Of a stretch of DNA of 46,278 nucleotides, positions 14,899 through 41,955 are shown one piece after another. Below the pieces are notes generated by a model, which had not been told where the DNA came from, did no database searches, and saw only the letters and a program-made list of their open reading frames with translations. The first letter of the stretch is position 1, and each line of letters begins with the position of its first letter. The stretch comes from Candidatus Woesearchaeota archaeon (GTDB taxonomy: Archaea; Nanobdellota; Nanobdellia; Woesearchaeales; UBA10216), in contig JACPBS010000011.1 in the NCBI GenBank assembly GCA_016180195.1, positions 1-46,278 on the forward strand, read 5' to 3'. Made by a program: the position numbers and the translations under genes.

Positions 14899-14914
14899 AA
14901 CCTAGTCAGGCATA

Positions 14915-16057: not shown

Positions 16058-16059
16058 AA

Positions 16060-17679: not shown

Positions 17680-17683
17680 AAAA

Positions 17684-22996: not shown

Positions 22997-23060
22997 CCAC
23001 TTCCTGATTGTAACAAACTTTTTTAAAGGCATAAAATTTGGCCATAACGGGGTGGTAAAT

Positions 23061-23171
23061 GTGAGAATAAACTTCAACAAGCCAATGCTAGTCATAAATG
23101 CGGACAGCTTCAAGTGCTACTGCAAGAAAAGATCGATGAAGGAAGTGTTCAGCACCCTAAGAGGGGCTTAA
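23061..23171 (+). CDS. small conserved-looking ORF (36 aa)
   Basis: GTG at 23061 has GGGGTGG just upstream and a TATA-like TTTTTTAAAGG at about 23018-23027. The product (RINFNKPMLVINADSFKCYC, then KKRSMKEVFSTLRGA) is basic with a C-x-C pair that could hold metal. It stands alone between two convergent genes. I do not recognise it. The combination of ribosome site, promoter and balanced composition argues for a real microprotein. Confidence 0.45.
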   Translation: MRINFNKPMLVINADSFKCYCKKRSMKEVFSTLRGA

Positions 23172-23185
23172 TTTTATTTTTTTTT

Positions 23186-24334: not shown

Positions 24335-24385
24335 TTTTATATCCCCGGAGGAAAAAACCGCTAAAAAATAAAATATAATAGCGAT

Positions 24386-26137: not shown

Positions 26138-27084
26138 TTCTGATTTTCACCTCTGTAAAAAGCTGCTGCATCCTCAGGCAGCACCGAGTTTATCGTGGCG
26201 CCTGTTGAGAACTCAAAGCCTGCCCACACGGCAAGCCTAGGCATAACCTCGATATGAGCATGAAGATCAAGCTTGCCTGAATAATGGAGGACAAAATTAT
26301 AAGAGGCATTAATCGACTTAAGCTTGCCAAGCACAGAAACAAGAATCCCTGACAAGTCAGACACCTCGCCATTGCTCAATTCCAAAAAGCTCGAAACATG
26401 CCTCTTGGGAAATATCCAAACCTCATAATTGAACCTGGACGCGTAAGGAGCAAAAGCAACGAAGGATGAATTCTCAAAGCACCTGCGAAGGCTGCTCTTC
26501 TCGATATTCAAAATCCTGCAATACGGGCAAGACCCAAATCTTCTGCATGCAGAAGCCTCGTCCAGGATTGCCTTTGGAAACATGGAAATGGCAGTGATTT
26601 GGGTATGGGAATGTATCAGGGAAGCTCCGGCCTCAAGGCCATGGTTCTTGAAAACCGAAACAAAGCTGACAAAAGGAAGTTTTGACAGCTCACCAATCCG
26701 GGCGAAGTAAACCTTCATTAACCCGGCCACCCGGTCCTGATCAAGGTCCCAAAGCTGCTCATCATGCCTTGGAGTTTCTGATATGATTTCATGCCTCCCA
26801 TAAGCAGACGAGTAAGTGAAAAAAGTATTATCAGTAAAGACATCAGCACTCTGATCAATGTCAACAGCGGGAAACTTGTTATGAAACCACCTGAAAAGCC
26901 ATCCGTTTTTGCCCTCAACCCGGCCTATCTCCGGGGGAGTTAACGACTCATTCCCTGGGCAGAATGTGCAGGCCTTCTCTACTTTGATGCCTGCCTTGGC
27001 AGGCAATTCCTTTGGCCTTGATTTCCTTCCCACTGCGAAATAAACCCAGCTGTCCAAGATATAATCCTTCCTTAACTCCATCAT
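26134..27084 (-). CDS. galT: galactose-1-phosphate uridylyltransferase family
   Basis: A HIT-superfamily nucleotidyltransferase. The zinc site shows as CTFC (near residue 40) and CPYC (near 190); the active-site region is NHGLEAGASLIHSHTQITA with H-x-H-x-Q. It transfers UMP between hexose 1-phosphates. Its place between glycogen synthase and debranching enzyme suggests it makes or recycles NDP-glucose for glycogen rather than serving galactose use, but this is inference. ATG 27084 is preferred over 27093; it overlaps the glgA stop and has GGGGGT before it. Confidence 0.88.
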   Translation of the reverse strand: MMELRKDYILDSWVYFAVGRKSRPKELPAKAGIKVEKACTFCPGNESLTPPEIGRVEGKNGWLFRWFHNKFPAVDIDQSADVFTDNTFFTYSSAYGRHEIISETPRHDEQLWDLDQDRVAGLMKVYFARIGELSKLPFVSFVSVFKNHGLEAGASLIHSHTQITAISMFPKAILDEASACRRFGSCPYCRILNIEKSSLRRCFENSSFVAFAPYASRFNYEVWIFPKRHVSSFLELSNGEVSDLSGILVSVLGKLKSINASYNFVLHYSGKLDLHAHIEVMPRLAVWAGFEFSTGATINSVLPEDAAAFYRGENQK

Positions 27085-28847
27085 GACCCCCATTTTTTGG
27101 CCATAGCAATCTTGTGGGCCGAAAAGTAATACTTGGCGAAGTTCTTCCAGTCTGCATGGCTGGCAATGCGCTTTGCCTCTATCTTATTCCTTATCCTTTC
27201 TTCCTTGGTCATCCTGGAATAGCTGTAAAGTATATCTGAAAGATCATCAACAACCTTGTTATCATCCTTTCCAAGCCGCCTGATAACGAAAATACCCTCA
27301 TTTTTACTGCTTATCTTTGATATGTACTTGCCAAAGCCCGCCAGGTCTGTAGTAACCGATGCGACACCAAGAGCACCAGCCTCAAGCGGCGTATACCCCC
27401 AAGGCTCATAGAAGCTCGGGAAGACACCCAGATGAGAGCCAGTCATTGCCTCATAATAATTGAGGTCAAGGAGCCTGTCTGCGCCTGTTAGGTATATTGG
27501 GTAAAAAACAACCTTCACCCTATCATCCTCAGAGTTGTTCAGGCCCAGGCTTTTAAACATAGAGATAATGGAGTCATGCTCCTCATTATGGATATCATGG
27601 GTGGAAAGAGGAGGGCTTCCTTTTTTCGAAAGCCTCAAGGACTTTTTCCTGATCTCAAGCCACAAATCCCTGCCAAAAAGCTCATCCTCATTTATTCTTT
27701 TCTGGGTTATGCTCAGGTAAACCAGCCTTTCTATGATCTCGAGCGATGAGTCCCTGATCGATTCCTTGACATCCTCAAAAAAAGCCCGGTTTTCAACAAG
27801 CTCCTGCTTTATGCCCTTCACGTTCCCGGGAACCCAGAAAAAGGCCACTATGGTGTTATCTGACTTTTCCTTCTTCATGCGTTCATTCAGCTTTCCAAGA
27901 GACTGGATAAAGATATCAACACCCTTGTCGTGAAACTCATACCTCCCGCTCAGAAAATATATCAGGGTATTATTAAGGTTGAAATGGTAGTAAGGGAAAA
28001 AATAATATGTTATGAACTCCTTAATCCGGGCCTTATAATGCTTGTGCTTAATGGACGCTTCGTCAAAAGTAGGGAACTTGTCAAGGTTTAATCCGTTGGG
28101 CAGGACAAGGTCAGTCTTCCTTCCAAGCAGGCCCTCTGCTTCAATAGCTGTAACTTCGCTGACTGTTGTGAATACATCTGCATTCCGGGCAGCAGCCCTT
28201 TCAACCTGATGCTTCGGATGAACCCCCAGCCTGTAAGACTCAGCATCAGAATCTATCTTGCCTGCGTTATAAATGTCAATATTGGCAGAGGCCATGCACC
28301 TGCCAAGGACAGTTGCGTGCGTTGTAAAGACAGAAGCAACATTTGCCTTGTTCTTCTTGAGGTAAAGCAGCCCGGCCCCTGAAAGCCACTCGTGAAAATG
28401 AGCCAGGCACCTGCTGGAACCGGAAAGCTCCTCAATTAGTTTTCCGGCAGCATATGACCAGACAACAGGCTCGTCAAAATCATGGAATTCGGTATTAAGG
28501 GAATCAACCTTGAAGTGGTCCCATAGCTCCCTTTTAATCTCATTTGTATGGTAAGTGAATCCTGAATACTCAAGAAGTATGGCATTGGGCTCGCCTTCAA
28601 CAAGCCAGGTGCCGAAATGGCAGACAATTCCCTGCCCCTTGAGCCTGTCAAAAGCAGCCTTCAATAACTGTGATGGCGGCTTCTCCTCAAATTCGCCTAT
28701 GCTTTTTGCCAGGAAATAAGGTCCTACCGCAAAATAGCTGTCCTTATACCTGTCAACCATCTGAGCAGCCTTTGACCTGACCACTGTATAGATCCCTCCG
28801 ACCTTGTTGCAAACCTCCCAAGAAATCTCGAAAATGAGCCCAGGCAT
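27081..28847 (-). CDS. glycogen synthase of the eukaryote-type GT3 family
   Basis: The 588-aa protein opens FEISWEVCNKVGGIYTVVRS, the N-terminal mark of fungal/animal GT3 glycogen synthases, and has the family C-terminal FPSFYEPWGYTPLEAG with the double Glu and TTDLAGFG. Bacterial and most archaeal synthases are GT5/GT4 and look different. GT3 uses UDP-glucose in eukaryotes. ATG 28847 is chosen near a TATA box (about 28869-28882, TTTATAAATAAAG) lying in the tail of the upstream gene; GTG at 28853 is possible. First gene of the glycogen operon. Confidence 0.92.
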   Translation of the reverse strand: MPGLIFEISWEVCNKVGGIYTVVRSKAAQMVDRYKDSYFAVGPYFLAKSIGEFEEKPPSQLLKAAFDRLKGQGIVCHFGTWLVEGEPNAILLEYSGFTYHTNEIKRELWDHFKVDSLNTEFHDFDEPVVWSYAAGKLIEELSGSSRCLAHFHEWLSGAGLLYLKKNKANVASVFTTHATVLGRCMASANIDIYNAGKIDSDAESYRLGVHPKHQVERAAARNADVFTTVSEVTAIEAEGLLGRKTDLVLPNGLNLDKFPTFDEASIKHKHYKARIKEFITYYFFPYYHFNLNNTLIYFLSGRYEFHDKGVDIFIQSLGKLNERMKKEKSDNTIVAFFWVPGNVKGIKQELVENRAFFEDVKESIRDSSLEIIERLVYLSITQKRINEDELFGRDLWLEIRKKSLRLSKKGSPPLSTHDIHNEEHDSIISMFKSLGLNNSEDDRVKVVFYPIYLTGADRLLDLNYYEAMTGSHLGVFPSFYEPWGYTPLEAGALGVASVTTDLAGFGKYISKISSKNEGIFVIRRLGKDDNKVVDDLSDILYSYSRMTKEERIRNKIEAKRIASHADWKNFAKYYFSAHKIAMAKKWGS

Positions 28848-28885
28848 GATCACAAATCGCCAGCTTTATTTATAAAACTTTTACA

Positions 28886-29755
28886 CTACTTAAAAGTAGA
28901 TGACGATCTTTTGTGAAATTTCTGGTGAATGCCATGGATCTGGGAATATACTTTGGATTTGCCTTCCGGATTCAGGTCCCGATAAAGCTTTCTTACGCTT
29001 TCATAAAAAAGAGTGGCATCATCATACCTGCTCTTCGAAATCTCAATCTCAATCTTCCTGATGAGCTCAAGAATATCACTGATCCTCTTCTTGTCGATCT
29101 CACCGGAAAACTTTTTGTCCATCCTTTCCAGCATCGACAGCTTTTTCTCCACCTCAATCAGCCTGGATTCTTTGGTTGAAATATCATCCAGAACACCCTT
29201 AAGCCTGACAGAGCTATGCTTATGCTTCTCATCCAGAAGCCTTGTAGCGTTCAGAAGCGATTCGAATGCTCTCTGCCTTTCAGAAAGCTGCCTGCCCTTC
29301 CTTTCAAGCTCGATTGCGAGATGCTTTTCAGCCTTCATTTTTTCCGCGATCATATGCTGCCTTTTCGCAAGCTCATCCTCTGCATTTTTTTTATCCTGAT
29401 GAGACCTGAGGATCTCATGCCTAGCCCTGATTCTTTCCCTTTCCTGGGCATTTATCCTTTTTGCGAGATCCCTTAACTGCCTGTCAAGCTCGGATTTCTC
29501 CCTTGCAACCTCTGCATTTTTGCTCTCAATCGCCTTTTCCCTTTCCAGAAGCTGGGAAAGCCTTTTCTCATAATTGGCCTTCAGCTCGATAACCTTCTTT
29601 TCATGAACCTCAAGGCTCGCATATTTTTCCTTCACAAGCTCATCCATAACTTTAACGGCTGCCAGCTCCTTCTTGACCTGCTCCTTAAATGAGCGCTCAG
29701 CATTCTTCAGCTCTGCAAGCCTTTTCCTGAAATCATTCTGAAATAGCACAATCAA
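28886..29755 (-). CDS. coiled-coil protein of the surface-ATPase operon
   Basis: A 289-aa protein dominated by heptad-type coiled coil (residues ~5-225) rich in Glu, Lys and Arg. It ends with a compact helical module (about 228-289) containing YDDATLFYESVRKLYRDLNP, which matches the C-terminal module of the large ATPase (LDEALASYSDIQKAYHDLKP) and of the PKD protein. It has no signal peptide or membrane segment, so it is cytoplasmic. Last gene of the operon, overlapping its neighbour by 4 nt. No known family; the shared module suggests physical assembly with the other operon products. Confidence 0.7.
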   Translation of the reverse strand: MIVLFQNDFRKRLAELKNAERSFKEQVKKELAAVKVMDELVKEKYASLEVHEKKVIELKANYEKRLSQLLEREKAIESKNAEVAREKSELDRQLRDLAKRINAQERERIRARHEILRSHQDKKNAEDELAKRQHMIAEKMKAEKHLAIELERKGRQLSERQRAFESLLNATRLLDEKHKHSSVRLKGVLDDISTKESRLIEVEKKLSMLERMDKKFSGEIDKKRISDILELIRKIEIEISKSRYDDATLFYESVRKLYRDLNPEGKSKVYSQIHGIHQKFHKRSSSTFK

Positions 29756-30807
29756 CCACCCCTTTTGAACAGCTTGCCCACAATTCCCTTGCTACCCTGG
29801 TCTGATTCAGGAACTGACACTTCTGACTGGCCCATCTCCTTAAGCTTCTCCACCTTGACGCCGCCTGCCCTACCACCCTCCTCGCTCATCATCCCCAGGA
29901 CCTTTCCAAAATCTGCATTCTTGCCTGCCAAGGACTTGAATCCGGCAAGCAAGGCATTAACTTCCTTTATCCTTGAATCCATGTCAGCAGCCATTTTCCT
30001 CTCAGCAGTATCAATCCTTGAGTTCATCATTTCCACAATGCTGCCAGTCCTTTTCTCAAAAACAGAAAATTTCCCCATAAGCTCAGTAACCTCCTTCTTC
30101 GAGGATAGGGTGTCTATCTTGACTGAAAGGTTGTCTACGTCTGAGCTAAGCTTCTTGAAGGAAGTGTTAAGGTCATTTGTAACGTCCCTAAACCTGTTAA
30201 GCTCGCCAAAATTCTTGCTCATCTCCGCAAAAATAGTCTCGACACGGTCAGAGTGCCGCTGGATAAGAACCTGCATCTTTCTCATCTCAACCAGGTCACC
30301 CTTGACCTGCTCGCTCATCTTCACGACCTCTTCAAGACCCCTCAAAGAAGAAAGCTTGTTCCTCAAATCCTTGAGCTCTGAAAGGATATTATTGATCATG
30401 GCTTCATGGCTGTCAATAGTGGCCCTTACACCCTCAACCTTTGCATCTTCCTTCCTAAGCTCAACCATCAGCTTCTCAGGCTGAACACTTTCAACGATGT
30501 CAATGGCCTGTGTTGCCTTGGCCTCAAGGTGCTGCTTTGCCCGATCCATGTCAATAATCATGGCCCTCAGCTCCCCAATCTGCTCATTGACCCGCGCGAA
30601 CCTTTCACTGACAGCCTTGTTCATCTCATAGAATGACGCAAACTGGTTCTTCAGCTTCTCCAGGTCAAGCCCTAGCCTGTCTACATTTGTTACAGCCTTA
30701 GGGGCTTCAGTGTCAGAATGCGCAATCGGAACATCTTCAATGCTGATGTCCTTATCACTTAATGAGTCCTCCTGGGCTTCCTCTTTTTTTTTCTTGAAAA
30801 GCTGCAT
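29752..30807 (-). CDS. cytoplasmic coiled-coil protein with basic ends
   Basis: 351 aa. The N-terminus MQLFKKKKEE and C-terminus GKLFKRGG are basic and almost mirror each other; between them lies an acidic linker (residues 12-40) and ~250 residues of long-helix sequence (RFARVNEQIGELRAMIIDMD, SVQPEKLMVELRKEDAKVEG). No membrane helix. The basic ends could contact membrane lipid or the ATPase. I know of no function. It starts 23 nt after the 81-aa gene and overlaps the next gene by 4 nt (ATGA). Confidence 0.7.
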   Translation of the reverse strand: MQLFKKKKEEAQEDSLSDKDISIEDVPIAHSDTEAPKAVTNVDRLGLDLEKLKNQFASFYEMNKAVSERFARVNEQIGELRAMIIDMDRAKQHLEAKATQAIDIVESVQPEKLMVELRKEDAKVEGVRATIDSHEAMINNILSELKDLRNKLSSLRGLEEVVKMSEQVKGDLVEMRKMQVLIQRHSDRVETIFAEMSKNFGELNRFRDVTNDLNTSFKKLSSDVDNLSVKIDTLSSKKEVTELMGKFSVFEKRTGSIVEMMNSRIDTAERKMAADMDSRIKEVNALLAGFKSLAGKNADFGKVLGMMSEEGGRAGGVKVEKLKEMGQSEVSVPESDQGSKGIVGKLFKRGG

Positions 30808-30830
30808 ATATTCCTTTTCCGAAACCAGAT

Positions 30831-31076
30831 TTATAAAATTTGCGTGCTTTCAAGTTTTCCAACCTCAGCTTCCAGCTCTGCCATCAGCCTTGCTGCGGAA
30901 TCAATATCCTTTTTCAACATCGTAGCCTCAGCAAACTGTATTCTTGCAGGCACTGAAAGAAGACGGGTGTTAAGGAAAAAAGTATCGACACCCTTTTTCC
31001 TCATGCGGCTCACCCGGTCATACATGTCCTTCAGCCTGAGCCTCAACGCATCTATCTCAGGATTCCTGGCTGTCAT
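30831..31076 (-). CDS. small helical protein of the surface-ATPase operon
   Basis: 81 aa, all-helical, no signal peptide. The segment KGVDTFFLNTRLLSVPARIQ followed by DIDSAARLMAELEAEV parallels the linker in both ATPases just after the motor domain (KIDVFDLKLGLKMVSDKVKS, ADIYVQDLKTNL), suggesting it is a stand-alone version of that linker. It overlaps the large ATPase gene by 4 nt (ATGA), so stoichiometric synthesis is likely. Function unknown. Confidence 0.65.
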   Translation of the reverse strand: MTARNPEIDALRLRLKDMYDRVSRMRKKGVDTFFLNTRLLSVPARIQFAEATMLKKDIDSAARLMAELEAEVGKLESTQIL

Positions 31077-34000
31077 CTTTTAAGCTCCGCTATCCTTCTC
31101 TGGAGGAAAACACACTTTTCAGCTATTAATTTCTTGTCCTCTGGCTTAAGATCATGATAAGCCTTCTGGATATCCGAATAGCTTGCCAAAGCTTCATCCA
31201 AGTTCTTGGCTTCAATGCTGATGAACGTTGCTCCGATTAGCTGCTCAATTTTCCTTAGCAGGTCGTTAGGTGTTTCACTTTCCTGTTTCCTGGCAGCCCT
31301 CTCCTTTTTCCTCGGCTCCTTTCCAGCCTTCTTGAACTGGTTGTCAAGGTTTGTCTTAAGGTCCTGAACATATATGTCTGCCATGCTGAAATTTCCGGAC
31401 TTCACCTTGTCCGAAACCATCTTCAGACCAAGCTTTAGATCGAAGACATCAATCTTAAGCTCCTCCAGCTGGTCAACCTGGAACTCGATGTCATCAATCA
31501 TTTGGTTGTACTTGTTATAGGACGTCAGCTCCTCATCCGAGAGCCTTCCTGTATCATGCACAACTGGCCTGAATGTTATGAAGTAGGGCTTACCCTGGTT
31601 ATAAGCAGCATTCTGTATCATGGCAACGCCAACCTCTGACTTAATAAGCGACTTGAGAGCCTCCTCCCCATATTCCTCCTTGATAAGCTCCATATCCTTC
31701 TCATCCCTCAACCTCAACATGATCTGCGTGTTGATGTTCGCCTTTATCGAGTCGCTGAAATCACTTGTTGTCTGGCTTATAACAATGATGCCTATCCCCC
31801 ATTTCCTGAACTCCCTGACAGCGCGCTCGATCTTCACAAAAACATTTCCAGGCCCCCCAAACTTAGGAAGGAGGTTATGTATGCCGTCAAACACAAGGAG
31901 GTACTTTATCTGCTTCTCCTCAGGCATGTTCTGTGAGAAGATGCTGTCAATCACGTTGGCAAGGAACACGTCAAGCCTGCTTGAATCCAAGTCCTTGGTG
32001 ACAAGAACGTTAATCTCACCTGGCTTCGAGGTCTTCTTGAAGTCAATAGGCTCGTACTCGTCTTCCACATTCTTAATGTTCCCGGCGAAAGCACGCGACA
32101 TCGAAGGCTTCATGCCGAAACTGCTGAAAAGCGCCAGGTTCTTCTTTTCCCTGCAGGGCCTGAGAAATCCAGTCCATTGCGCAGTCTGGTCAAAAACAAA
32201 AACCGAAACACCCCTGGACAGCGCTTCCTCTACAATAACCTGCCCTGCAATGCTCTTACCACTTCCGCTTGCGCCAGCAATCAACGTGTGCATAGGAAGC
32301 TGATCAATGTCCAGAATCGCTTTTGAAGATGACTCAGCTATCTTGCCAACAAACAGGCCACGCGGTCCCTCCTTTGGCAATTGGCCAAGGCTAACCGATA
32401 CCTTGTATCTTTTCTTTTCATATGCACGCTTCCTGTAAAGCACAGTGCCGAAAGTTGCAGTTGAGATAACGCCCACTGCAACCAGCGCAACCCACAAGGG
32501 AATCCCGAAAACCGCGTATTTGTAAAACGGCTGCCTGATGCTGAAGAATGAACTGTAATATGAGGAGGATCCGATGTACTCGGCCTTCACAACAAGGTCG
32601 TAATCCCCTGGCTCCATGTTTTCAGGCAGGGAAGACGACTTAACCAATACAGCGGAAGTTTTCAGCTCAACCTCGTCACTGCCGATTTCCGCGCTGAACC
32701 CATTCCTGTCACTCACGTTATATGAAAGCTTAAGAGCGAACTTTTCCTCCTGGAGAAGGTTCTGAAGCTCGATCCTGTACTTTAGCCTGTCACCGATAGT
32801 AATCATGCTATCAGAGATCCTAAGCTTTAGAAGCAGCGCCTCTACGGGAAGCTTCTCCTCGCTATAAACTACGACCTCGATTGGAATCACCTTGCTTACA
32901 GTCCCATCCACCTTCAGCTTTCCGTTGTATATCCCCTGCTCCTTTCCGAAAATGGAGACCTCGATATCCTCCTGCAAGCCCTGAGCTATGCTGACAGACT
33001 TCTTGTTCAGCTTTACAATTTCTGCCGCATCACCCTCAACCTCCAAAGTGACGTCAATCTTGTTCTTTTTGTGGTTTTTGATGGTGATAGGGATAGTGGA
33101 AAATGTGCCTTTCCTAAGCTTGGCGGTAATCTTCTCGAGGGAAAACTCATACTCGACCTTTGATGTTTCCTTTGTGTCAACGGCCTTCACCACTTTTTTT
33201 GCAGCCGAGCTTCCCTCACCGCCTCCCCCGCCCTGGACGATCTGGACTATCACGCTGGGAACATAAACTGACATTGTTATGTTCTTCCAGGTAGTATCCA
33301 GTACAGTTATGTTGCCGATGTAATTGTTATAGCCTGTCTTGGTTGCGACAATAACATGAGAGCCCTCGCTGACATTGCCAGAATAAAATCCTGAATTGTC
33401 TGTTACGAACACATTTCCAGCGATGCTCACTGAAACCCCTGAAAGCACGATGCCAACCTCATCCCTGACAAATCCCATTAATGTGCCGTTCTCAGCAACA
33501 TTCCCTTCAGGAAGGGAGAGGCTGATGTTATGGGAATTAAGCGTGTCAGGCTCTATGACCGAGAAATTGACATATGAACTGTAGCCTGGAGTGTACGCGA
33601 TTATGGTGTTCGATCCAGCTGAAATCCTGTCAATGATATAGGTGCCATCCTGGCCGCTAATATTTGCCAGCCCTCCTGAAGAAACTATGACGCCGGGTAG
33701 CCTTGATTTGCTAACATCGTCACTAACATTCCCGACAAGGGTCCCGGTCTTCAGGCCTATCACATAATTGGAAAGGTGACTGGACATGAAAACGATTGAG
33801 TTGTCAAGGGGATAAGCGGTTGAATCAAGCCTTTCCCAACCAGATGCAGACTCATTATAATAATACCCTGCCAGGTAGGACTCGTTGAAGAAGTTCGGGA
33901 CTATACTATCAGGGTAAGTTATATTGAACGATATGTTCAAAACCTCGCTGCTGTTGAAGTAATCCGAGCTGAAGTCATAGAACCTGTAAATAACAGGGAA

Positions 34001-36154
34001 ATCAGGAATTGAAATGTCAGGGGAGGACATGATAGTTGCTGTCATAATAACATTAGTCCTGTTCACGTTCAGCAGCACGCCAAGGGTTGCCGAAAAATTA
34101 AGGGACTCATTGAAGAAAGAGAAATACTCAACCTGGTTTGATGTTATGTTTCTAGTGATTGACAGGTTGGATATTATTTTTTTTGAAGCAGGAGTCCCAC
34201 GCTTAACCTTCTGAACCATGGATAGGTTCTCATCAACAACCTCATTGGCAACCACATCAACAATCTTAAAAAAGGTATCGTAGCCTGATTTAGATGCAAT
34301 AAGAACATGCTTCCCCTCAGTCACGTTTAAGGAATATAAGCCGCTGCTGTCAGTAGTTGAGTTTATCCCGTTTATGCTTACCGTGACTCCTGAAACCGTG
34401 AGATTTGTAGAATTGTCAATTGCATATCCCCTGATCGTGCCATTCGAAAAAACAACAAACCTTGACATGTAGATGCTTGCATGAACAGTGCTCCCGGCAC
34501 TAATAGTTATGTTATTCACATAAGGATTATAACCCTGCTTTGTCGCAACAATATTATAAGTGCCTTTCAAGCTGGTGAAATTGAAAAATCCCGAGGAATT
34601 GGTAACAACTGATGACCCGGAAAAGCTGACAGTAACATTTGCAAGCAGATCCATGGAACCATTTTCATACACAAAACCATCCAAGGACCCGTAAAGAAGC
34701 CGCATTGAAATATTCTTATATGTTACATTGCCAGGAACCACGTTAACGGACGAAACATAAGCTTCATACCCCGACCTGTTAGCGATCAGCGTATAATCGC
34801 CTCCACTTATATTCATCGAATAGAACCCTGAGGAAGAGGAAAAAACAGTCTTCCCCCCGACAATCACCGTCGCATTATTAATGAAGACAGAGTAATCCAA
34901 ATCGGAGATGAAACCCTCGATGCTGCCAAAAACCTTGGTCATGGTAATGTTCCTGACAGCTGTCTGATTTGCAATAACTGTGACGTTGGCGATAAAGCTG
35001 CCATAGGATGCCTTTGTTGCGATAATATTGTGGGTGCCCGGGGTGGTGTTAAGCAGGTAATACCCGGATCCGTTGGAATTGACAACGCTTCCCTGGACAC
35101 TGATGCTTGCATTAGAAACAGGAAGGCCGCTTGAGTTATCAAAAACAAAACCCGACAAAGAGCCATTGGCATCCCTGTAACCGGTAAACTGCGTCAGGTT
35201 GAAGTCAACAACAGTAGTCTGGGCCAAAGTGATGTTTATTATCGAACTAATGTGAGTATTATACCCGTCTTTCATGCCAATCACGCTGTAGGACCCGGTT
35301 GCGACTGAGAAATTATATCCGCCAGTGGAATTTGTAGATCCGGAAGAGGCGCCAACAGAAACAGTAACGGCCGACAAGGCCTCGCCCGTCTGGTTGTCCC
35401 TCACAACACCTGCAACGATCCCGTCCCCTGTAAGCCCGATACCAAGGCCTTCAGGGCACGAATCATAAGGATCAGAAAGGAAATAGTAGGTTGTAGTGGC
35501 ATTCGGAAGGCCAACCATCATCTGGTAATTAACGCTTGAATACTTGTAGCTCTTAGAAACAGACGGTGTTTTCTTTGTTACGAAAACAAGATAGTTGGAT
35601 ACATTAAGAATGCCCAAGGGAAAAACAGTGCTTGACTCGTTATTGTACTGCTTCATGTAAGCTGCGGGTGTGGAAACATTGCTGTTCCCTACTTCAAAGG
35701 ATTCTATGTTGGTAAACGTCCTGTTGCCAGAGTCGTCGGCACTTGGGCTTATATTAAGAAAGGAATCCAGCATGCCCGTAGTAGCGGCTCTTGTCGTTGA
35801 CCAGTCAAGAAGCGAAGGATCTGTGGAAGTGGCAAACACCTCATGCGTCCTGCCCGGCTCAAGGCAGTTAAACACAAGGTGCTTCTCATCGACATCACCT
35901 GGCGATGCGTCATCAGTCTGCTGCTCCTCATACCCGGGAAGCATCAGCTCCAGGCCGTAATAGCCCTGCCAATGCCCTGTCGTGAACTTCCGGATTACGG
36001 TCAGCGCTGTTATTGTGCCGCCATCCGTATCCACAACAGCGTAACCTGAAGGGGATCTGGTTTTAAAAAAAAACAACGAGATTGCAAGAGACGAAACCAG
36101 CACAACCATGATTAATGCGAACTGCAACTTCCTGGAAAAAGGAACTGTTGTCAT
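31073..36154 (-). CDS. giant surface protein fused to a membrane FtsK/HerA-type ATPase
   Basis: 1693 aa. N-terminal membrane anchor (ALIMVVLVSSLAISLFFF). Seven carboxypeptidase-regulatory-like beta domains (five at ~240-645, two at ~800-962), each opening GxLxGxVxD and ending near ATKxGYNxY, dense in N-x-S/T sequons. A Gly linker (QGGGGGEG) precedes an Ig-like membrane-proximal part (~990-1205), a membrane helix (~1215-1236), an ATPase with Walker A AGASGSGKS (~1293) and VERAVREFRKWG-type ERAVREFRKWGIGIIVISQ, then a helical tail. Walker B reads LLVFDGIH, lacking the catalytic Glu found in the 36151 paralogue. Probably inactive or slow as an ATPase. Confidence 0.85.
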   Translation of the reverse strand: MTTVPFSRKLQFALIMVVLVSSLAISLFFFKTRSPSGYAVVDTDGGTITALTVIRKFTTGHWQGYYGLELMLPGYEEQQTDDASPGDVDEKHLVFNCLEPGRTHEVFATSTDPSLLDWSTTRAATTGMLDSFLNISPSADDSGNRTFTNIESFEVGNSNVSTPAAYMKQYNNESSTVFPLGILNVSNYLVFVTKKTPSVSKSYKYSSVNYQMMVGLPNATTTYYFLSDPYDSCPEGLGIGLTGDGIVAGVVRDNQTGEALSAVTVSVGASSGSTNSTGGYNFSVATGSYSVIGMKDGYNTHISSIINITLAQTTVVDFNLTQFTGYRDANGSLSGFVFDNSSGLPVSNASISVQGSVVNSNGSGYYLLNTTPGTHNIIATKASYGSFIANVTVIANQTAVRNITMTKVFGSIEGFISDLDYSVFINNATVIVGGKTVFSSSSGFYSMNISGGDYTLIANRSGYEAYVSSVNVVPGNVTYKNISMRLLYGSLDGFVYENGSMDLLANVTVSFSGSSVVTNSSGFFNFTSLKGTYNIVATKQGYNPYVNNITISAGSTVHASIYMSRFVVFSNGTIRGYAIDNSTNLTVSGVTVSINGINSTTDSSGLYSLNVTEGKHVLIASKSGYDTFFKIVDVVANEVVDENLSMVQKVKRGTPASKKIISNLSITRNITSNQVEYFSFFNESLNFSATLGVLLNVNRTNVIMTATIMSSPDISIPDFPVIYRFYDFSSDYFNSSEVLNISFNITYPDSIVPNFFNESYLAGYYYNESASGWERLDSTAYPLDNSIVFMSSHLSNYVIGLKTGTLVGNVSDDVSKSRLPGVIVSSGGLANISGQDGTYIIDRISAGSNTIIAYTPGYSSYVNFSVIEPDTLNSHNISLSLPEGNVAENGTLMGFVRDEVGIVLSGVSVSIAGNVFVTDNSGFYSGNVSEGSHVIVATKTGYNNYIGNITVLDTTWKNITMSVYVPSVIVQIVQGGGGGEGSSAAKKVVKAVDTKETSKVEYEFSLEKITAKLRKGTFSTIPITIKNHKKNKIDVTLEVEGDAAEIVKLNKKSVSIAQGLQEDIEVSIFGKEQGIYNGKLKVDGTVSKVIPIEVVVYSEEKLPVEALLLKLRISDSMITIGDRLKYRIELQNLLQEEKFALKLSYNVSDRNGFSAEIGSDEVELKTSAVLVKSSSLPENMEPGDYDLVVKAEYIGSSSYYSSFFSIRQPFYKYAVFGIPLWVALVAVGVISTATFGTVLYRKRAYEKKRYKVSVSLGQLPKEGPRGLFVGKIAESSSKAILDIDQLPMHTLIAGASGSGKSIAGQVIVEEALSRGVSVFVFDQTAQWTGFLRPCREKKNLALFSSFGMKPSMSRAFAGNIKNVEDEYEPIDFKKTSKPGEINVLVTKDLDSSRLDVFLANVIDSIFSQNMPEEKQIKYLLVFDGIHNLLPKFGGPGNVFVKIERAVREFRKWGIGIIVISQTTSDFSDSIKANINTQIMLRLRDEKDMELIKEEYGEEALKSLIKSEVGVAMIQNAAYNQGKPYFITFRPVVHDTGRLSDEELTSYNKYNQMIDDIEFQVDQLEELKIDVFDLKLGLKMVSDKVKSGNFSMADIYVQDLKTNLDNQFKKAGKEPRKKERAARKQESETPNDLLRKIEQLIGATFISIEAKNLDEALASYSDIQKAYHDLKPEDKKLIAEKCVFLQRRIAELKR

Positions 36155-38190
36155 TTTCCTGCCTTTTTCTCGGCCTTCTCCCTTTCCTTCTGCGCCAGCT
36201 CAAAGTCCCTTTTGAGCTCCTCCTCGCTGATCACCTCAATCTTCCTTTCCTTGGGCTTCATGCCGAGCTTTTCCCATTCTGACTTTATCCTCGGAAGAAG
36301 GCTCTCCAGATAGATCTCAACCATGTTGAAGCTCCCTGCCTTTACCTTGTCAAGCGCCATCTTCAGCTCGAGGCGCATGTCAAAAACATCAACCTTGAGC
36401 TCCTCAAGCTGGTCGATCTGGAACTCCAGGTCGTCAAGAAGATCGTTATATTTCGTGTAATTCGCCAACTCATCGTCACTAAGCCTTGCATGCTCATGGA
36501 GCAGGGGCCTGAATGAAATGAAATAAGGCTCGCCGTTGTTGTAGGAGGAGTTCTGCAACATACCAGTCCCGGTAGAAGCCTTAAGCAGCGACTGGAGCAT
36601 AAAAGTGCCGTACTTGTTCTTGATCCTGTCCAGGTCACCCTGGTCACGCGTCCTCATCTGGATTTCCGTGTTGATATTGGCCTTAATCTCGCCCATAAAA
36701 TCAGTCAGGACCTGGCTAATAAGGACAAGCCCCACGCCCCACTTCCTGAATTCACGAGCGCCCCTCTCAACCTGCACAAAGCCCTGGCCAGAACCCCCGA
36801 ACTTGGGAAGAAGCCTGTGAACCTCATCGAAAAGTATTACCAGCTTAAGCTCCTTGTTCTCGGGAAGGTCTGCCTTGAAAACCTGCTTTACAGTATTCGC
36901 GACAATGATATCTATATCCTTAGGCTCCAGCCTGCTGACAACGAAAATCGTTATTTCCCCGGGCTTCATGAACTTCTTGATGTTTATTATCTGCCTTGGG
37001 TTCGTAATAGTCCTTATGTTGCCGTTGAAAGACCTCGCGTCAGTCTTCTTGAGGCCATAGTTCTCATAGATGGCAAGCATTTTCTTGTCCTGGTTCCTCC
37101 TAAGCATGCCAGACCACTGCGCAGTCGGGTCGAACACTATGACCGAAATACCCTTGATGAGGGCCTCCTCGATTAGCACTTTCGCTGCGACAGTCTTTCC
37201 TCCGCCAGTGGAACCTGCTATGATGGTGTGGGTCTGAAGCTGGTCAATGTCAAAGAAAGCCTTTACTTTCTTCTCCGCAATGAGCCCTGCAAAGGCGCTC
37301 CTGGCACCCTGCTTGGGAAGAAGCGAAAGATTCAGGTTGCTCACATACCTCTTTTTTTTCTGAAGCTTGGTCTTGTAGATGAAGAAGCCTGCGCCGCACA
37401 TCAAAACAAGCCCTAAAAACAGCAGGATAGCCCTGATGGGCAATACACCGAGCACAAGGAAATCAAGCCAAGACTCATAAACAAAGAACCTGGTGCTGGC
37501 AAATGCGGACAATCCCAGGTAATCGGATTTCACATTAAGAACATATTCTCCCGACTTCAAAAAATCAGGAATAGAAATCTCCTTGAGCATCGAAAGCGAG
37601 CTATCAAGCTTTACAGTCTCGGATTCCGAAAAAAAAGACCTGTTCTGCATATATGTATCTGATTTTCCAATCTTGTCAATGCTGTACTCAATCTTCACAT
37701 CGTAACCTTTTTCGCCCAGAAAATTCTGCAAGTCAACCTTGAACTTCAGCTTGTTGCCCATCTGCACCTTATCGGACACAATCTCCACACCAAGGTTGAG
37801 CGCGTTAACAGGAGTCGCACTCTCTGCTACTATAAGGTTCATTGGGATCTTCTCATTTGCATCCCCCTTTAAAACCAGGCTTCCATTATACTTCCCCAGG
37901 TTGTTCCCGAAAAAAGTAAGGGTCACATTGCCGCTTGAAGAGGGGCTCAGCTCAAGCCTTGACTTGTCAAGCTGTGTTATGTTGCTAACATTGCCCTCAA
38001 GGGCGAAAATAATCAATGATTTGCCGCTCTTGTAGTTGCTAATCCTTACCGGAAACTCCTTAAACTCACCGACCTTAATCCTCTTGATTATGCTGTCCTC
38101 AGAAATACCATACAGCTCGTTCTCAATAGCGAAAGCCACAGGAGACAGAGCTACAGCTAAAACCAAAATGAAGACAAAAGCCTTCATCAT
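36151..38190 (-). CDS. membrane-anchored FtsK/HerA-type ATPase
   Basis: 679 aa. Signal peptide (KAFVFILVLAVALSPVAFA), Ig-like extracellular part (~25-240) homologous to the membrane-proximal part of its 1693-aa neighbour, one membrane helix (~245-270), then a DUF87/HerA-type motor: Walker A AGSTGGGKTVAAKV (~330), Walker B LVILFDEVHRLLPKF intact (~455), ERGAREFRKWGVGLVLISQ and NINTEIQMRTRDQGD. A charged helical tail follows. Such ATPases pump DNA or protein through membranes (FtsK, HerA, VirB4/TraG). ATG 38190 is chosen because it overlaps the upstream stop; a frame extends to 38220. Confidence 0.88.
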   Translation of the reverse strand: MMKAFVFILVLAVALSPVAFAIENELYGISEDSIIKRIKVGEFKEFPVRISNYKSGKSLIIFALEGNVSNITQLDKSRLELSPSSSGNVTLTFFGNNLGKYNGSLVLKGDANEKIPMNLIVAESATPVNALNLGVEIVSDKVQMGNKLKFKVDLQNFLGEKGYDVKIEYSIDKIGKSDTYMQNRSFFSESETVKLDSSLSMLKEISIPDFLKSGEYVLNVKSDYLGLSAFASTRFFVYESWLDFLVLGVLPIRAILLFLGLVLMCGAGFFIYKTKLQKKKRYVSNLNLSLLPKQGARSAFAGLIAEKKVKAFFDIDQLQTHTIIAGSTGGGKTVAAKVLIEEALIKGISVIVFDPTAQWSGMLRRNQDKKMLAIYENYGLKKTDARSFNGNIRTITNPRQIINIKKFMKPGEITIFVVSRLEPKDIDIIVANTVKQVFKADLPENKELKLVILFDEVHRLLPKFGGSGQGFVQVERGAREFRKWGVGLVLISQVLTDFMGEIKANINTEIQMRTRDQGDLDRIKNKYGTFMLQSLLKASTGTGMLQNSSYNNGEPYFISFRPLLHEHARLSDDELANYTKYNDLLDDLEFQIDQLEELKVDVFDMRLELKMALDKVKAGSFNMVEIYLESLLPRIKSEWEKLGMKPKERKIEVISEEELKRDFELAQKEREKAEKKAGK

Positions 38191-41100
38191 CTTGACAATA
38201 ATCCGTGTACCTCTGAACATAAAGCGTAAACCTCTTTCTTCCTCTCTGCGGCGATGATCCGGTATACAGATTGCATCTCCGAATATGCATCACGGGCTTC
38301 CTTCGCCTTTCCCTCCCCAATCAGCCTCTTTGCCTGGTCTGCCCGGGCTTTCACAAAGCACACGTTGATGCTGGTGCAAAGCAAAGACAACCTTTGCTTG
38401 ACAGAAGCCCTTGATTTCTCAGGAAGCCCAGCAAAGGCTGACCGTATGCTGCCATAAGCCTTCTTAGCAGCCTCATAATCATTCCTTCCCAAAGACAATT
38501 CCGCCTCCTTAATCAGGTCGTCCAAAGGCCCTTTTGCAGGCCGCCTGCTGTAAACCACAAATATAGCCGCAATAACAAACACAAGGACCAGCTCTGCGAC
38601 AAGCCTTTTCCTTGCGCTTCCGGCAAGCTCATCAATGCCTGAAAAAAGACCTGTTATCCCGCTTGGCTGGCTTTTGATGTATTTCCCAAAAACCAAAACA
38701 GTAGAGGAATCCTTGATTTTCTCAATTTCAGCCTCATTCCCCGAATAATAGGCAATAAAATCGTGCCTGGGCGAAATTGATATTACCGGATCCCGTTCAA
38801 GCACCTCATATTCCAATCCATCAAGGAAATGAATGTCGGTGACATCAGCTGCAAACTCCTTTGGGATCACTTCCAAAAGCTTCACGTTGTCATCGGTGTA
38901 CGAGTTCTTTATCGTTTTCTCAACCAGGCCATATCTCCTTTGCTCACCTGACAGGAAGGCGACCTCAACAATGGAAATCTTGGAAGTGACCGTGACATGC
39001 GATTGAAGCTCCAGATTCTGCTTAACCCATCTTTTCCTTTCATTATCCTTGACCTTGTTTTTCGACATCGCAATGATCCTGGCCGCTGAATCCTCCACTA
39101 ATGATCTCTTTGGATAGCTGACATACTCTTCCTCGGCCACGACAGAAACCGAGAATGGCGTGCTGTTCCTCACACTTTCCAGGGAAAGCATGATCGCGGC
39201 CGTGAAGTTCTCCTGCTCTTCCCTGGTGAATCGCCTCCACTTCATGTCGAACAAGTCCCGCCTCAGCCTTTCAAGAGATGTAATCGATGACTCTATTCTT
39301 TTGTCAAATTCCATTCGCCTGAAATAATCATCTGACTCAGGATCCAAACCAGGCATGATCCCTGAAATCTCACTTATCGCCTGATCTATTCTCTGGGACT
39401 TGCCCAGTGTATCAGTTGACAGGTTTATGGTGAACCTGCCATTGCTCGAATTGCTGACACCTGACTGGTCAGTACAATTTATGACCGCAATGTAATCGCC
39501 CTCAGTCAGGTTAACCATTGAAAACACATTCTCAGTCCCGTTCCTTGCAGGCGTTGTAAGGATTATCCCCGAGGAGTTAAGGGACAGTGAGCAGACCAGG
39601 GGATTTGCGGACACAGGGATGAATCCAGCACTTGCACCGCTACCATTTGAATTAAAAGACACTCCTCCCAGCATTACATACCTGCTGGGTATCCTGTCCA
39701 ACAATATCTCGATGGAAATGTTTGAGCTGACTTCGACTGCTGATGAATATGGCCTGTAATCCTCCGCGCTAACATCAATGCCGTATTTCCCTGCCCTTCT
39801 CTGGGCAGATCCATTTGGATAAGCGACGCCATCCAGCCTGAATGTTGCATTCGGGACAGGGAGCCTGGAAGCATTGTCCACCACCACCCATGTCAGGTTG
39901 TTCAGCCTGTGAACTTGAATTTTCATGGACGCTGACGCGTTTGAGGATGAATCTGTAGCATTAAGGAGAACCATATATGATCCATTCCTGGAGAACGAAA
40001 AGTTAGTTGAGGAAAGATTTGAATCCACATTCCCGTCGCCATTAAAATCCCATCTAAAGGATACTGAGCTGATGTTCCCGGAAATTGCAGCAGAGAAGGA
40101 TATTCCCTGGCCCTCATCAACATCACTGTCGTTGGCAACGATTGAAACCCCGAGGCTGCTTTTCATGGGCCCCACCACCTCAAAAGGCAGCATCATGCTC
40201 CTGTTTATGAGGGACATGTATGAAAAGGAAACATTGGCGCTGTAATTGCCTGGAGAGGAAAGATAAAAGAAATAGGTAACCGGGCCGTAGCTTGGAAAGG
40301 CAGTTGACTGCATGTAGCCTGGGCCGATGACTGTTATGTTATAGGTGGAATTTGCAGGCGACTGGACTGCAATCAGTATCTGCTCGCTGATATTGTAACT
40401 CTGCTTGTCAACAGCCGCGTCAAATTCCCTGCTCATGTTCTGGACAAAGTAAAAACTGTGATATGAAAAGTTTGAGTTGCCGTTCATGTCGCTTACATTA
40501 ACCAGCAAAATGTTTGACCCGTTCAGCATCGAAAGATTTACCGGGCTGCTTCGTGAAAGCCGTGCAGGAGCTGAAAAACCATTCGAGTTCAATGAATATG
40601 ACAAATATGACTCCTCATTTGAAGTCACGTTTACCAGCAGGGATGCGTGTTCTGAGATAATAGTCCCTGACTGCTCAACTACGCCTGCCAAAGGCGGCAA
40701 TGAATCATTGACTTCAAACATGTAAGGAACAGAAAAAAAGGATCCGTTCACGCTGATGTTGATCCAAACAGCATATTCACCGTTCCTAAAAATTCCGGAA
40801 TCAAGCCCTCCCGTGAGCAGCAGGCTGAAAAAGGAATCGTTTCCCGACCTGGAGACTGGAATGATGTAAGACCTGTTCAAAAAAGATGCATTAGCTGTGG
40901 CATTTCCGGCAATGCTGAAGTTAAGATAAACAGGCTCTGCAATGCCCAATGGGGTCATATTCTGTGGGCTGTATATAATGAGCGTAATGAGCGGGCTGCT
41001 GTTAAGGGATATGTTTACGGGAGAAATGAAAACCGCTTCCAGGGTTGACCAACCCCCGAAACGGACTTCTGAAACCGAAAGCCCGTCATCAAGATAGACC

Positions 41101-41486
41101 AGATTTGCGTTGACCTTATTCCTGCTCCCAGACCCATCCTTCCCTAAAAACAAGTAAAAAGAATCATTCCAGGAACTCAATTCCCTGCTTTCAAGGCCGA
41201 TGGATTCGCAACAAAATCCAGGACCGTTGCACGAAGGAATGAAATTCCCCGTTTCCTCATTATATACAGACCACCAAGTACAAACATGGGAAATGTTCGT
41301 GTCCAGAATGCTGTTCTTAACAGTGAAATCTATCACCTGCCTGCTACCTTCAATCCCGTTGTTGTCAACGTCAAAAGGGCCGTGACCATACTCAAGAACA
41401 GTCCTAATACTTGCCTGCTCCAGGCCTGAAACAGAAATTGCAATCAGCCAGGCTATTGCGAATGCAATAAGAAAACGCCTATTCAT
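38187..41486 (-). CDS. PKD-domain surface protein with membrane anchor and helical tail
   Basis: About 1099 aa. Signal peptide (RRFLIAFAIAWLIAISVSG), a Cys-containing N-terminal beta region (CTWWSVYNEE, CNGPGFCC), several Ig-like segments, a PKD domain (~445-530) with FRWDFNGDGNVDS, a beta region ending with IPKEFAADVTDIHFLDGLEY, one membrane helix (~960-980, LVLVFVIAAIFVVYS) and a cytoplasmic tail with two copies of the helical module (NDYEAAKKAYGSIRSAF; AKEARDAYSEMQSVYRI). Rich in glycosylation sequons. ATG 41486 overlaps the stop of the second regulator. It overlaps the ATPase gene by ATGATG. Probably the outer component or adhesin of the system. Confidence 0.8.
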   Translation of the reverse strand: MNRRFLIAFAIAWLIAISVSGLEQASIRTVLEYGHGPFDVDNNGIEGSRQVIDFTVKNSILDTNISHVCTWWSVYNEETGNFIPSCNGPGFCCESIGLESRELSSWNDSFYLFLGKDGSGSRNKVNANLVYLDDGLSVSEVRFGGWSTLEAVFISPVNISLNSSPLITLIIYSPQNMTPLGIAEPVYLNFSIAGNATANASFLNRSYIIPVSRSGNDSFFSLLLTGGLDSGIFRNGEYAVWINISVNGSFFSVPYMFEVNDSLPPLAGVVEQSGTIISEHASLLVNVTSNEESYLSYSLNSNGFSAPARLSRSSPVNLSMLNGSNILLVNVSDMNGNSNFSYHSFYFVQNMSREFDAAVDKQSYNISEQILIAVQSPANSTYNITVIGPGYMQSTAFPSYGPVTYFFYLSSPGNYSANVSFSYMSLINRSMMLPFEVVGPMKSSLGVSIVANDSDVDEGQGISFSAAISGNISSVSFRWDFNGDGNVDSNLSSTNFSFSRNGSYMVLLNATDSSSNASASMKIQVHRLNNLTWVVVDNASRLPVPNATFRLDGVAYPNGSAQRRAGKYGIDVSAEDYRPYSSAVEVSSNISIEILLDRIPSRYVMLGGVSFNSNGSGASAGFIPVSANPLVCSLSLNSSGIILTTPARNGTENVFSMVNLTEGDYIAVINCTDQSGVSNSSNGRFTINLSTDTLGKSQRIDQAISEISGIMPGLDPESDDYFRRMEFDKRIESSITSLERLRRDLFDMKWRRFTREEQENFTAAIMLSLESVRNSTPFSVSVVAEEEYVSYPKRSLVEDSAARIIAMSKNKVKDNERKRWVKQNLELQSHVTVTSKISIVEVAFLSGEQRRYGLVEKTIKNSYTDDNVKLLEVIPKEFAADVTDIHFLDGLEYEVLERDPVISISPRHDFIAYYSGNEAEIEKIKDSSTVLVFGKYIKSQPSGITGLFSGIDELAGSARKRLVAELVLVFVIAAIFVVYSRRPAKGPLDDLIKEAELSLGRNDYEAAKKAYGSIRSAFAGLPEKSRASVKQRLSLLCTSINVCFVKARADQAKRLIGEGKAKEARDAYSEMQSVYRIIAAERKKEVYALCSEVHGLLSR

Positions 41487-41751
41487 CGCCAATCCCCTTC
41501 TTGATCTTTTTAAGCTCCTCTGCGATCATTCCCGCAGCAAGCTTCCTGCTTTTCTCCCTTATCGAGGATGAAATCTCCTGCCTGAGCATTTTTACCTCGA
41601 ACAGGTAAGGATCAGAATAAGCAAGCCAGCTTTTCCTCGTTATGCTCCTGACCAGCTCGCTCACGTCCATGAAGTGATCTTCCTCAGAAGCATGCCTTAC
41701 CTCATCCAGCAAACCCTGCGGGAGCCTCAGCGTAACGATTATGTCACTCAT
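41479..41751 (-). CDS. ribbon-helix-helix regulator 2
   Basis: 90 aa starting SDIIVTLRLPQGLLDEVRHA, the beta strand and first helix of an RHH DNA-binding domain, followed by VSELVRSITRKSW. The C-terminal half (LFEVKMLRQEISSSIREKSR) is a charged helix for dimerisation or partner contact. It overlaps the 49-aa regulator by 4 nt and the PKD gene by 8 nt. The pair of RHH proteins probably controls the operon. Confidence 0.78.
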   Translation of the reverse strand: MSDIIVTLRLPQGLLDEVRHASEEDHFMDVSELVRSITRKSWLAYSDPYLFEVKMLRQEISSSIREKSRKLAAGMIAEELKKIKKGIGDE

Positions 41752-41897
41752 TTCGTTCTTTCCCTCAGGTATTCCCTTATCTGGTCCCTGATCGCCTCGG
41801 ACCTGCTCTTATAAGTCCCCTTTTTCACAAGATAATCCAGCCAACTGACAACCTCCGAAGGCAGCCTGACATTAAGGGAAACTATTTTTTTGTACAA
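41748..41897 (-). CDS. ribbon-helix-helix regulator 1 (CopG-like)
   Basis: 49 aa from TTG at 41897: YKKIVSLNVRLPSEVVSWLD, YLVKKGTYKSRSEAIRDQIR, EYLRERTK. Classic minimal RHH: strand SLNVRLP, helix, turn and second helix with SRSEAIRDQ. AAGGAG precedes the TTG by 5-6 nt, which supports this non-ATG start. It overlaps the second regulator by ATGA. First gene of the surface-ATPase operon. Too short for most ORF filters, but a confident gene. Confidence 0.8.
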   Translation of the reverse strand: MYKKIVSLNVRLPSEVVSWLDYLVKKGTYKSRSEAIRDQIREYLRERTK

Positions 41898-41955
41898 TGT
41901 ATTCTCCTTGTAATTTTATTGTATTCATATCACCCTATAAATCCTTTATTTAAAT
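41898..41955 (-). promoter_or_regulatory. promoter and candidate RHH operator
   Basis: On the minus strand a TATA-like ATTTAAATAAAGG (41943-41955) is followed by a start region holding two direct repeats, TGTATTC on the plus strand at 41898-41904 and 41920-41926, 22 bp apart (two helical turns), as favoured by RHH dimers-of-dimers. The ribosome site AAGGAG lies between them, so binding could block both transcription and translation. Inference from spacing. Confidence 0.4.

Follow-up and report, generated by a model that had tools for sequence, protein, structure and literature searches.

DPANN-type small archaea of this group, the Woesearchaeales, are thought to live attached to other cells. 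How DPANN archaea attach to other cells and exchange material with them is open, and the proteins of an attachment organelle were stated to be unknown in a cryo-tomography study of 2024 (PMC11420986). Could an operon of eight genes in a woesearchaeal genome encode such a cell connection? The operon lies at positions 28886 to 41897 of the window, by which we mean the whole stretch of 46,278 nucleotides (nt) that was analyzed, contig C16 (JACPBS010000011.1) of a 1.23-Mb genome (G000). From first to last, it encodes two ribbon-helix-helix (RHH) proteins (RHH1 and RHH2), a PKD protein, two ATPases (A and B), a small helical protein (SMALL) and two coiled-coil proteins (CC1 and CC2). All eight open reading frames are on the minus strand, with junctions of -4, -14, -34, -4, -4, +23 and -4 nt, and thus overlap everywhere except at the 23-nt gap before CC1, exactly as a preliminary description made from the sequence had it. 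The operon is a concrete candidate for the cell-connection machinery of such archaea: with confidence and doubt about evenly balanced, we read it as a SPEARE-type, contact-dependent envelope transfer machine of the Woesearchaeales with two motor paralogues.

A conserved gene set with two motor paralogues

The motor was sought by profile in 238 genomes of the order, and a sample of the phylum added nine genomes of the same class. It was found in 65 of the 238. In genome_contigs, a scan with a single sequence (P0005) gave no matches but an alignment-based scan did. The neighborhoods of about 60 loci were scored by iterated profiles; many of the genomes are fragmented, which affects the calls of presence and absence. 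The genes typically follow the order RHH1-RHH2-PKD protein-ATPase-SMALL-CC1, overlapping or separated by short junctions. This synteny recurs in dozens of genomes, and the run of genes is therefore not due to chance. Where a locus had room upstream, the PKD gene was present in 35 of 48 cases and the RHH pair in 32 of 48; downstream, CC1 was found in 43 of the 58 loci with room for it and SMALL in 38. These six gene families are the conserved unit. The homologues thus co-occur in a syntenic set and are not scattered, and the locus has no archaellum, pilus or conjugation genes; membership in a named system of these kinds is not supported.

The most widespread partner of the motor is CC1, a conserved cytoplasmic coiled-coil protein of 351 residues (29752 to 30807; identified by alignment and synteny) with a single copy in the genome. 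Since it is also found behind motors whose ectodomains differ widely (propeller, laminin-G or giant array), motor and CC1 are the widest core. Its identification as the archaellum protein ArlC/FlaC was rejected, the match being a chance-level coiled-coil match (E 0.43) that did not recur in the family. SMALL (30831 to 31076; 81 residues) is fused to the C-terminus of the ATPase in four relatives (L043, L138, L140 and L057), which suggests that SMALL touches the ATPase. CC2 (28886 to 29755) was rejected as a core component because it is not kept across the neighborhoods scored; of the two coiled-coil scaffolds proposed at first, CC1 is conserved, but CC2 is lineage specific and outside the conserved set. 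At its C-terminus, CC2 resembles the tails of both ATPase B and the PKD protein (pairwise E values of 1e-7 and 3e-4; 9e-12 by profile), and the helical modules described as shared are indeed shared.

Both ATPases have an N-terminal hydrophobic segment, a beta-sandwich ectodomain, one further transmembrane (TM) helix and a cytoplasmic motor that matches HerA/DUF87 in Pfam. ATPase A (36151 to 38220; 689 residues) consists of two beta-sandwich domains, the TM helix (37354 to 37437) and a HerA-class motor with GGGKT, DEVH and REFRKWG motifs. ATPase B (31073 to 36154; 1,693 residues) has a signal anchor, an outer surface domain (35435 to 36046), seven CarboxypepD_reg-like repeats, immunoglobulin (Ig) domains, the TM helix (32459 to 32515), the motor and a helical tail. 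The PKD protein (38187 to 41492; 1,101 residues), assigned by Pfam (PF18911/PF00801), sequons and synteny, has a signal segment, an Ig/PKD ectodomain, a conserved membrane-proximal part, a TM helix (38547 to 38603) and cytoplasmic helical hairpins. N-glycosylation sequons (N-x-S/T) reach up to 9 per 100 residues outside and are nearly absent past the TM helix of B and of the PKD protein, which supports the predicted topology. The domains, the TM helices and the drop in B agree with the earlier view of two membrane-anchored ATPases with Ig-like domains outside and the motor inside.

Among proteins of solved structure, those nearest in sequence are HerA proteins (4d2i with E 1.6e-13, and others), and FtsK was reached only at E 0.002; in the former label "HerA/FtsK-type," HerA is thus right as the closest class, but FtsK is loose. 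The motors also match ResIII, a type III restriction look-alike, in Pfam (E 1.5e-5). An AlphaFold2 model of A, with a mean predicted local distance difference test (pLDDT) score of 69.9, has an N-terminal helix, beta-sandwiches at residues 37 to 132 and 141 to 248, a long TM helix at residues 262 to 289, the ATPase core and C-terminal helices, a topology that is usable. When this model was compared with the PDB by Foldseek, only generic Ig/MSP-type beta domains and no HerA were among the best 50 matches, and the assignment to the HerA class therefore rests on sequence.

How are the two motors related? A (9 rows) and B (8 rows) form two sister clades of a maximum-likelihood tree, each with a support of 100/100 or 100/99, and their subtrees are broadly congruent; judged from this tree, the ATPase is duplicated in this lineage. 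In most other genomes, a single motor combines the surface domain with intact catalytic motifs. After the duplication, A, whose ectodomain is short, no longer had the surface domain but retained DE[VI]H. In B, the long ectodomain with its surface domain was retained, and the glutamate of Walker B is missing from seven of eight genomes (DG[IM]H or DSVH), the exception being the earliest branch of B (G219), which keeps DEFH. In the window, D-G-I-H of B (31877 to 31888) stands where A has D-E-V-H. Since B retains the lysine of Walker A as well as the REFRKWG region and the SQ motif, the simple prediction is that B binds ATP and hydrolyzes it weakly. The "dual" ATPases are thus indeed two paralogues, but unequal ones. 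In four genomes (G032, G144, G191 and G219) A and B are encoded on separate contigs, yet they are kept together.

Six further pairs of a long-arm and a short-arm motor were found (two in G041 and one each in G039, G034, G133 and G129), so that all seven duplications examined have the same outcome. In the further pairs, the motor profile starts at residue 28 to 121 in the short member and beyond residue 540 in the long one. Since the two members of most pairs branch together as sisters (the node between G034 and G133 is weak), the pairs apparently arose separately. Their repeated long/short outcome would be best explained by mixed rings that carry arms on some subunits only.

Some relatives of the motor are peculiar in themselves. 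Two gap-free single reading frames that end in the motor, of 9,165 residues (G041:C97:1877-29374; L203, L049) and 8,149 residues (G039:C17:210-24659; L204, L051), are among the longest archaeal proteins, and a short-arm motor paralogue comes after each of them. An apparent frame of 15,809 residues (G041:C41:15376-62805) holds about 16.6 kb of N, and its length is therefore not established. In L037:7831-11805 (G058:C36), an in-frame TAG splits the ATPase gene between the ectodomain and the TM/motor parts, whether as a pseudogene, through an error or as a true split. A contig binned as Omnitrophota (L058; QNCM01000049.1) encodes a SPEARE-like motor, by transfer or misbinning.

The secreted SURF family and a putative RHH operator

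The outer domain of B aligns with proteins of about 250 residues, here called SURF; these match no Pfam family, and by eye their N-termini resemble signal peptides. The genome of the window has five standalone copies (G000:C19:3134-8992), and 10 of 65 loci have standalone SURF genes close to the operon. At least three SURF matches were found in 48 of the 65 genomes with the motor versus 6 of the 173 others (Fisher p 5e-29, no phylogenetic correction), a p value that overstates the certainty because related genomes are not independent. Ten motor genomes had no SURF match (G006, G009, G039, G041, G057, G064, G069, G082, G093 and G149); the four of these that were examined (G006, G009, G039 and G041) have motors with other, long ectodomains. 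Loci with SURF arrays also carry further secreted Ig/PKD proteins. Several of them (L152, L153, L155 and L158 to L163) share a winged-helix regulator (HTH_20/ArsR-like) and secreted proteins of about 300 and about 560 to 590 residues without a Pfam match, perhaps parts of one larger surface structure.

Is the operon under the control of its own RHH proteins? RHH1 (41748 to 41897; 49 residues) has a CopG-type RHH domain (PF01402, RHH_1, E 1.9e-7) and is the first gene of the operon in relatives. RHH2 (41479 to 41751; 90 residues) is RHH-like, with a profile match to the RHH1 family (E 1e-11), and is otherwise only weakly similar to CdrS/Arc. Upstream of RHH1 are a TATA-box-like TTTAAATA (41947 to 41954), called from the sequence only, and a putative operator (41898 to 41924) of three WTACA direct repeats (41920 to 41924, 41909 to 41913 and 41898 to 41902) 11 bp apart. 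The exact triple occurs once in the genome, at the RHH1 promoter. In the RHH1 promoters of about 30 relatives, read on one strand, WTACA sites are spaced by 11 bp in 46 pairs, by 22 bp in 21 pairs and by 33 bp in 7 pairs, and never by 9, 10, 12 or 13 bp; there are 4.2 sites per 120 bp upstream of RHH1 versus 1.1 in shuffles, and a pair at 9 to 12 bp is present in 69% of RHH1 promoters versus 3% of 223 other upstream regions. When 1.23 Mb of loci were scanned with a matrix, about fifty matches scored above 13 bits, all near RHH1 starts except one in L163; since the matrix was trained on RHH1 promoters, the argument is circular for the number found at them but not for the scarcity of matches elsewhere. 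The motif in fact located the missing start of the operon in one genome (G144), where a WTACA triple at the end of contig C10 precedes an RHH1 gene and contig C11 begins with RHH2. An RHH domain and a repeated putative operator at its own promoter, the marks of a CopG-type regulator, are thus both present, and sites confined to the own promoter in the own genome are as expected for autoregulation.

A general control of the SURF arrays in trans by the RHH proteins was not supported: the 120-bp stretches ahead of 51 SURF genes contained no repeat pairs. In G159 and, via an 81-bp contig overlap, in G109, two genomes of a single family, the operon and a SURF gene are transcribed in opposite directions from the operator region. 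A repeated GTGAACGTAAACG-like motif before some SURF genes (L033:1714, L112:7621 and L119:8947) differs from the RHH operator.

Beside the operon, a glycogen-synthase-like gene starts 32 nt past its end, beyond CC2, and forms with a glycogen-debranching-like gene (identities by eye) the stretch from 21995 to 28853. Similar glycogen genes adjoin a SURF gene in another genome (G004, L160:12136-15644), possibly a common neighborhood. A cluster resembling PrkA-type serine kinase, YeaH and SpoVR (12790 to 19888; by eye), with two P-loop proteins around two others, is unusual for an archaeon.

A transfer machine and its rivals

If the operon encodes a contact-dependent transfer machine, A and B would form a mixed ring in which A hydrolyzes ATP and B binds ATP and hydrolyzes it poorly, and the long arm of B would place arms at some ring positions only. 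SURF proteins may bind or polymerize onto the outer domain of B, giving a fiber, sheath or conduit that touches the partner cell. The PKD protein, SMALL and CC1 could be the collar and the cytoplasmic scaffold, the RHH pair would autoregulate the operon, and the ring would pass a polymer (DNA or protein) through the membrane where the two cells touch. The envelope-spanning translocase proposed at first thus holds in so far as the HerA-class motor is anchored in the envelope and accompanied by a cytoplasmic coiled coil, but translocation itself we still infer, since the operon has no gene for a substrate, nuclease, relaxase or multi-TM channel. This lack weighs against a transfer machine, and so do several other points. 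About 73% of the sampled members of the order are without the motor, which is thus not a universal device of the group. The SURF proteins have Sec-type signals of their own (by eye), and their export should therefore not need the motor; the model of the SURF domain is too poor for a fold (pLDDT 57.5), and co-occurrence of SURF and motor in genomes does not prove physical assembly. Finally, the likeness to SPEARE is drawn from published descriptions, not from sequence alignment.

The first rival is a cargo-specific version of the same machine, in which a Ced-like ring imports DNA from neighbors for nucleotides or repair and cells or DNA are caught by SURF-type arms. DNA is what motors of the HerA/FtsK class usually pump, and the best NCBIfam match of B is CedD (E 1.3e-12, partial). 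CedB and CedD are also a HerA-type paralogue pair, of which CedD has a TM helix (PMC11868833). However, B scores 47 bits against the CedD equivalog NF053655, whose cut-off is 600; neither a VirB6/CedA-like channel of six to seven TM helices nor a VirB2/CedA1-like pilin of two was found in the operon or the conserved neighbor families, and the conserved neighbors include no nuclease or repair gene. DNA uptake or exchange is a possible function, although we would not expect it.

If the cargo were protein, the ring would export it into the partner cell through the arm complex, as in the secretion straw of Reva et al. 2023 (PMC10266531). The domain order and the companion ATPase are as in SPEARE, and the gap-free giant-arm relatives of up to 9,165 residues would suit a straw. 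But no effector gene was recognized near the operon, and PF03135, which is reported for the nanohaloarchaeal companion, was not found in the companion ATPases here. Effector secretion, too, is possible, although we would not expect it.

Rather unlikely is an anchor for adhesion or a surface layer, in which the ATPase drives assembly, remodeling or clustering of SURF and PKD proteins without any transmembrane cargo. Homology of the motor arm to multicopy secreted SURF proteins, dense glycosylation sequons and the absence of a channel gene are what such an anchor would predict, but Walker A, Walker B (except in B), the REFRKWG region and the SQ motif are strictly kept, which argues for processive work on a polymer. 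A chromosome or cell-division machine, i.e., an archaeal FtsK substitute with the RHH proteins as DNA-binding partition factors, would account for the HerA-class motor, the RHH pair with its periodic DNA sites and a coiled coil of SMC-like composition, but it is very improbable given the patchy distribution (65 of 238 genomes of the order), the linkage to secreted surface proteins and the restriction of the periodic sites, in the own genome, to the operon's own promoter.

To return to the contact-dependent transfer machine, it might even represent a new class of intercellular transfer machine, a proposal that we make with clear reservation: motor subunits would carry the fold of the outer subunit, a HerA-type ring would mix catalytic short-arm and noncatalytic long-arm subunits, a SURF sheath or conduit would sit on the arms, and an autoregulatory RHH switch would control a gene set for woesearchaeal cell connections.

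Comparison with known systems

HerA-NurA shares the motor class and provides the nearest solved structures by sequence, but here the motors have no HAS-barrel match in Pfam, no NurA neighbor was found at the locus, and the motors have a membrane anchor and an ectodomain. None of the locus proteins matched PF00437 or PF00482 of the archaellum and type IV pili, and the PF00437 (T2SSE-type) ATPases of the genome are on other contigs. Against the anti-phage HerA systems of PADLOC, only partial, motor-only matches without a partner were obtained. A viral or mobile origin was not supported, scans of IMG/VR having given short motor-motif matches only and no SURF. The large cell-bridging attachment organelle seen by cryo-tomography in the Nanobdellota archaeon YN1 (PMC11420986) belongs to related archaea and is a lead only.

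Closer are the Ced and Ted systems (PMC9905601, PMC11868833), which likewise have a paralogous pair of HerA/VirB4-type ATPases and in which one protein of the machine shares a homologous domain with the surface subunit (CedA and CedA1 there, ATPase and SURF here); unlike them, the operon has a single-TM ATPase with a long ectodomain and neither CedA nor CedA1.

Closest are the giant contact proteins of nanohaloarchaea called SPEARE, described with a signal peptide, Ig arrays, a TM helix, a VirB4/TraG-like ATPase and an adjacent second ATPase (PMC6642349, PMC10266531). Hamm et al. 2019 read its intracellular part as type III restriction-like, stated laminin-G for all SPEARE ectodomains, and reported relatives in Woesearchaeota, Aenigmarchaeota, Micrarchaeota and Altiarchaeales and no SPEARE-like sequences in Nanoarchaeota (PMC6642349); Reva et al. 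corrected the intracellular part to an ATPase and proposed secretion straws (PMC10266531). Indeed, A and B each combine in one polypeptide a signal or anchor, an Ig-rich ectodomain, one C-proximal TM helix and a HerA/VirB4-like cytoplasmic ATPase, and the adjacent second ATPase gene (though with no PF03135 match here), the helical C-terminus, the ResIII look-alike similarity and the presence of the motor family in overlapping groups (Woesearchaeota, Aenigmarchaeota and Altiarchaeales) are also alike. In contrast, the ectodomains of these proteins of 1,693 and 689 residues have about 1,200 residues or less, not thousands, and laminin-G is absent from A and B in Pfam; relatives of the same family do have propeller or laminin-G domains (the latter in L046) or are giants of 8,149 and 9,165 residues (G039 and G041). 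Because length and laminin-G differ and the homology is by description only, we do not file the operon as SPEARE, although it probably works like SPEARE and kinship is likely. The preliminary description had named no described system; the kind of motor is already known from the published domain plan of SPEARE. The six-gene operon (with the RHH pair, PKD protein, SMALL and CC1), the operator, the SURF domain and family and the Walker B-degenerate partner do not appear in the searched passages of the two SPEARE papers, and no description of the gene set, operator or secreted family was found in the open-licence literature, where absence is no proof of novelty. To the nanohaloarchaeal SPEARE candidates, discussed mainly as lone giants, the operon thus adds a six-gene set, a secreted partner family, a regulatory sequence and a catalytic/noncatalytic motor pair in expressible proteins of ordinary size, as well as a sequence-based route to similar systems in other genomes.

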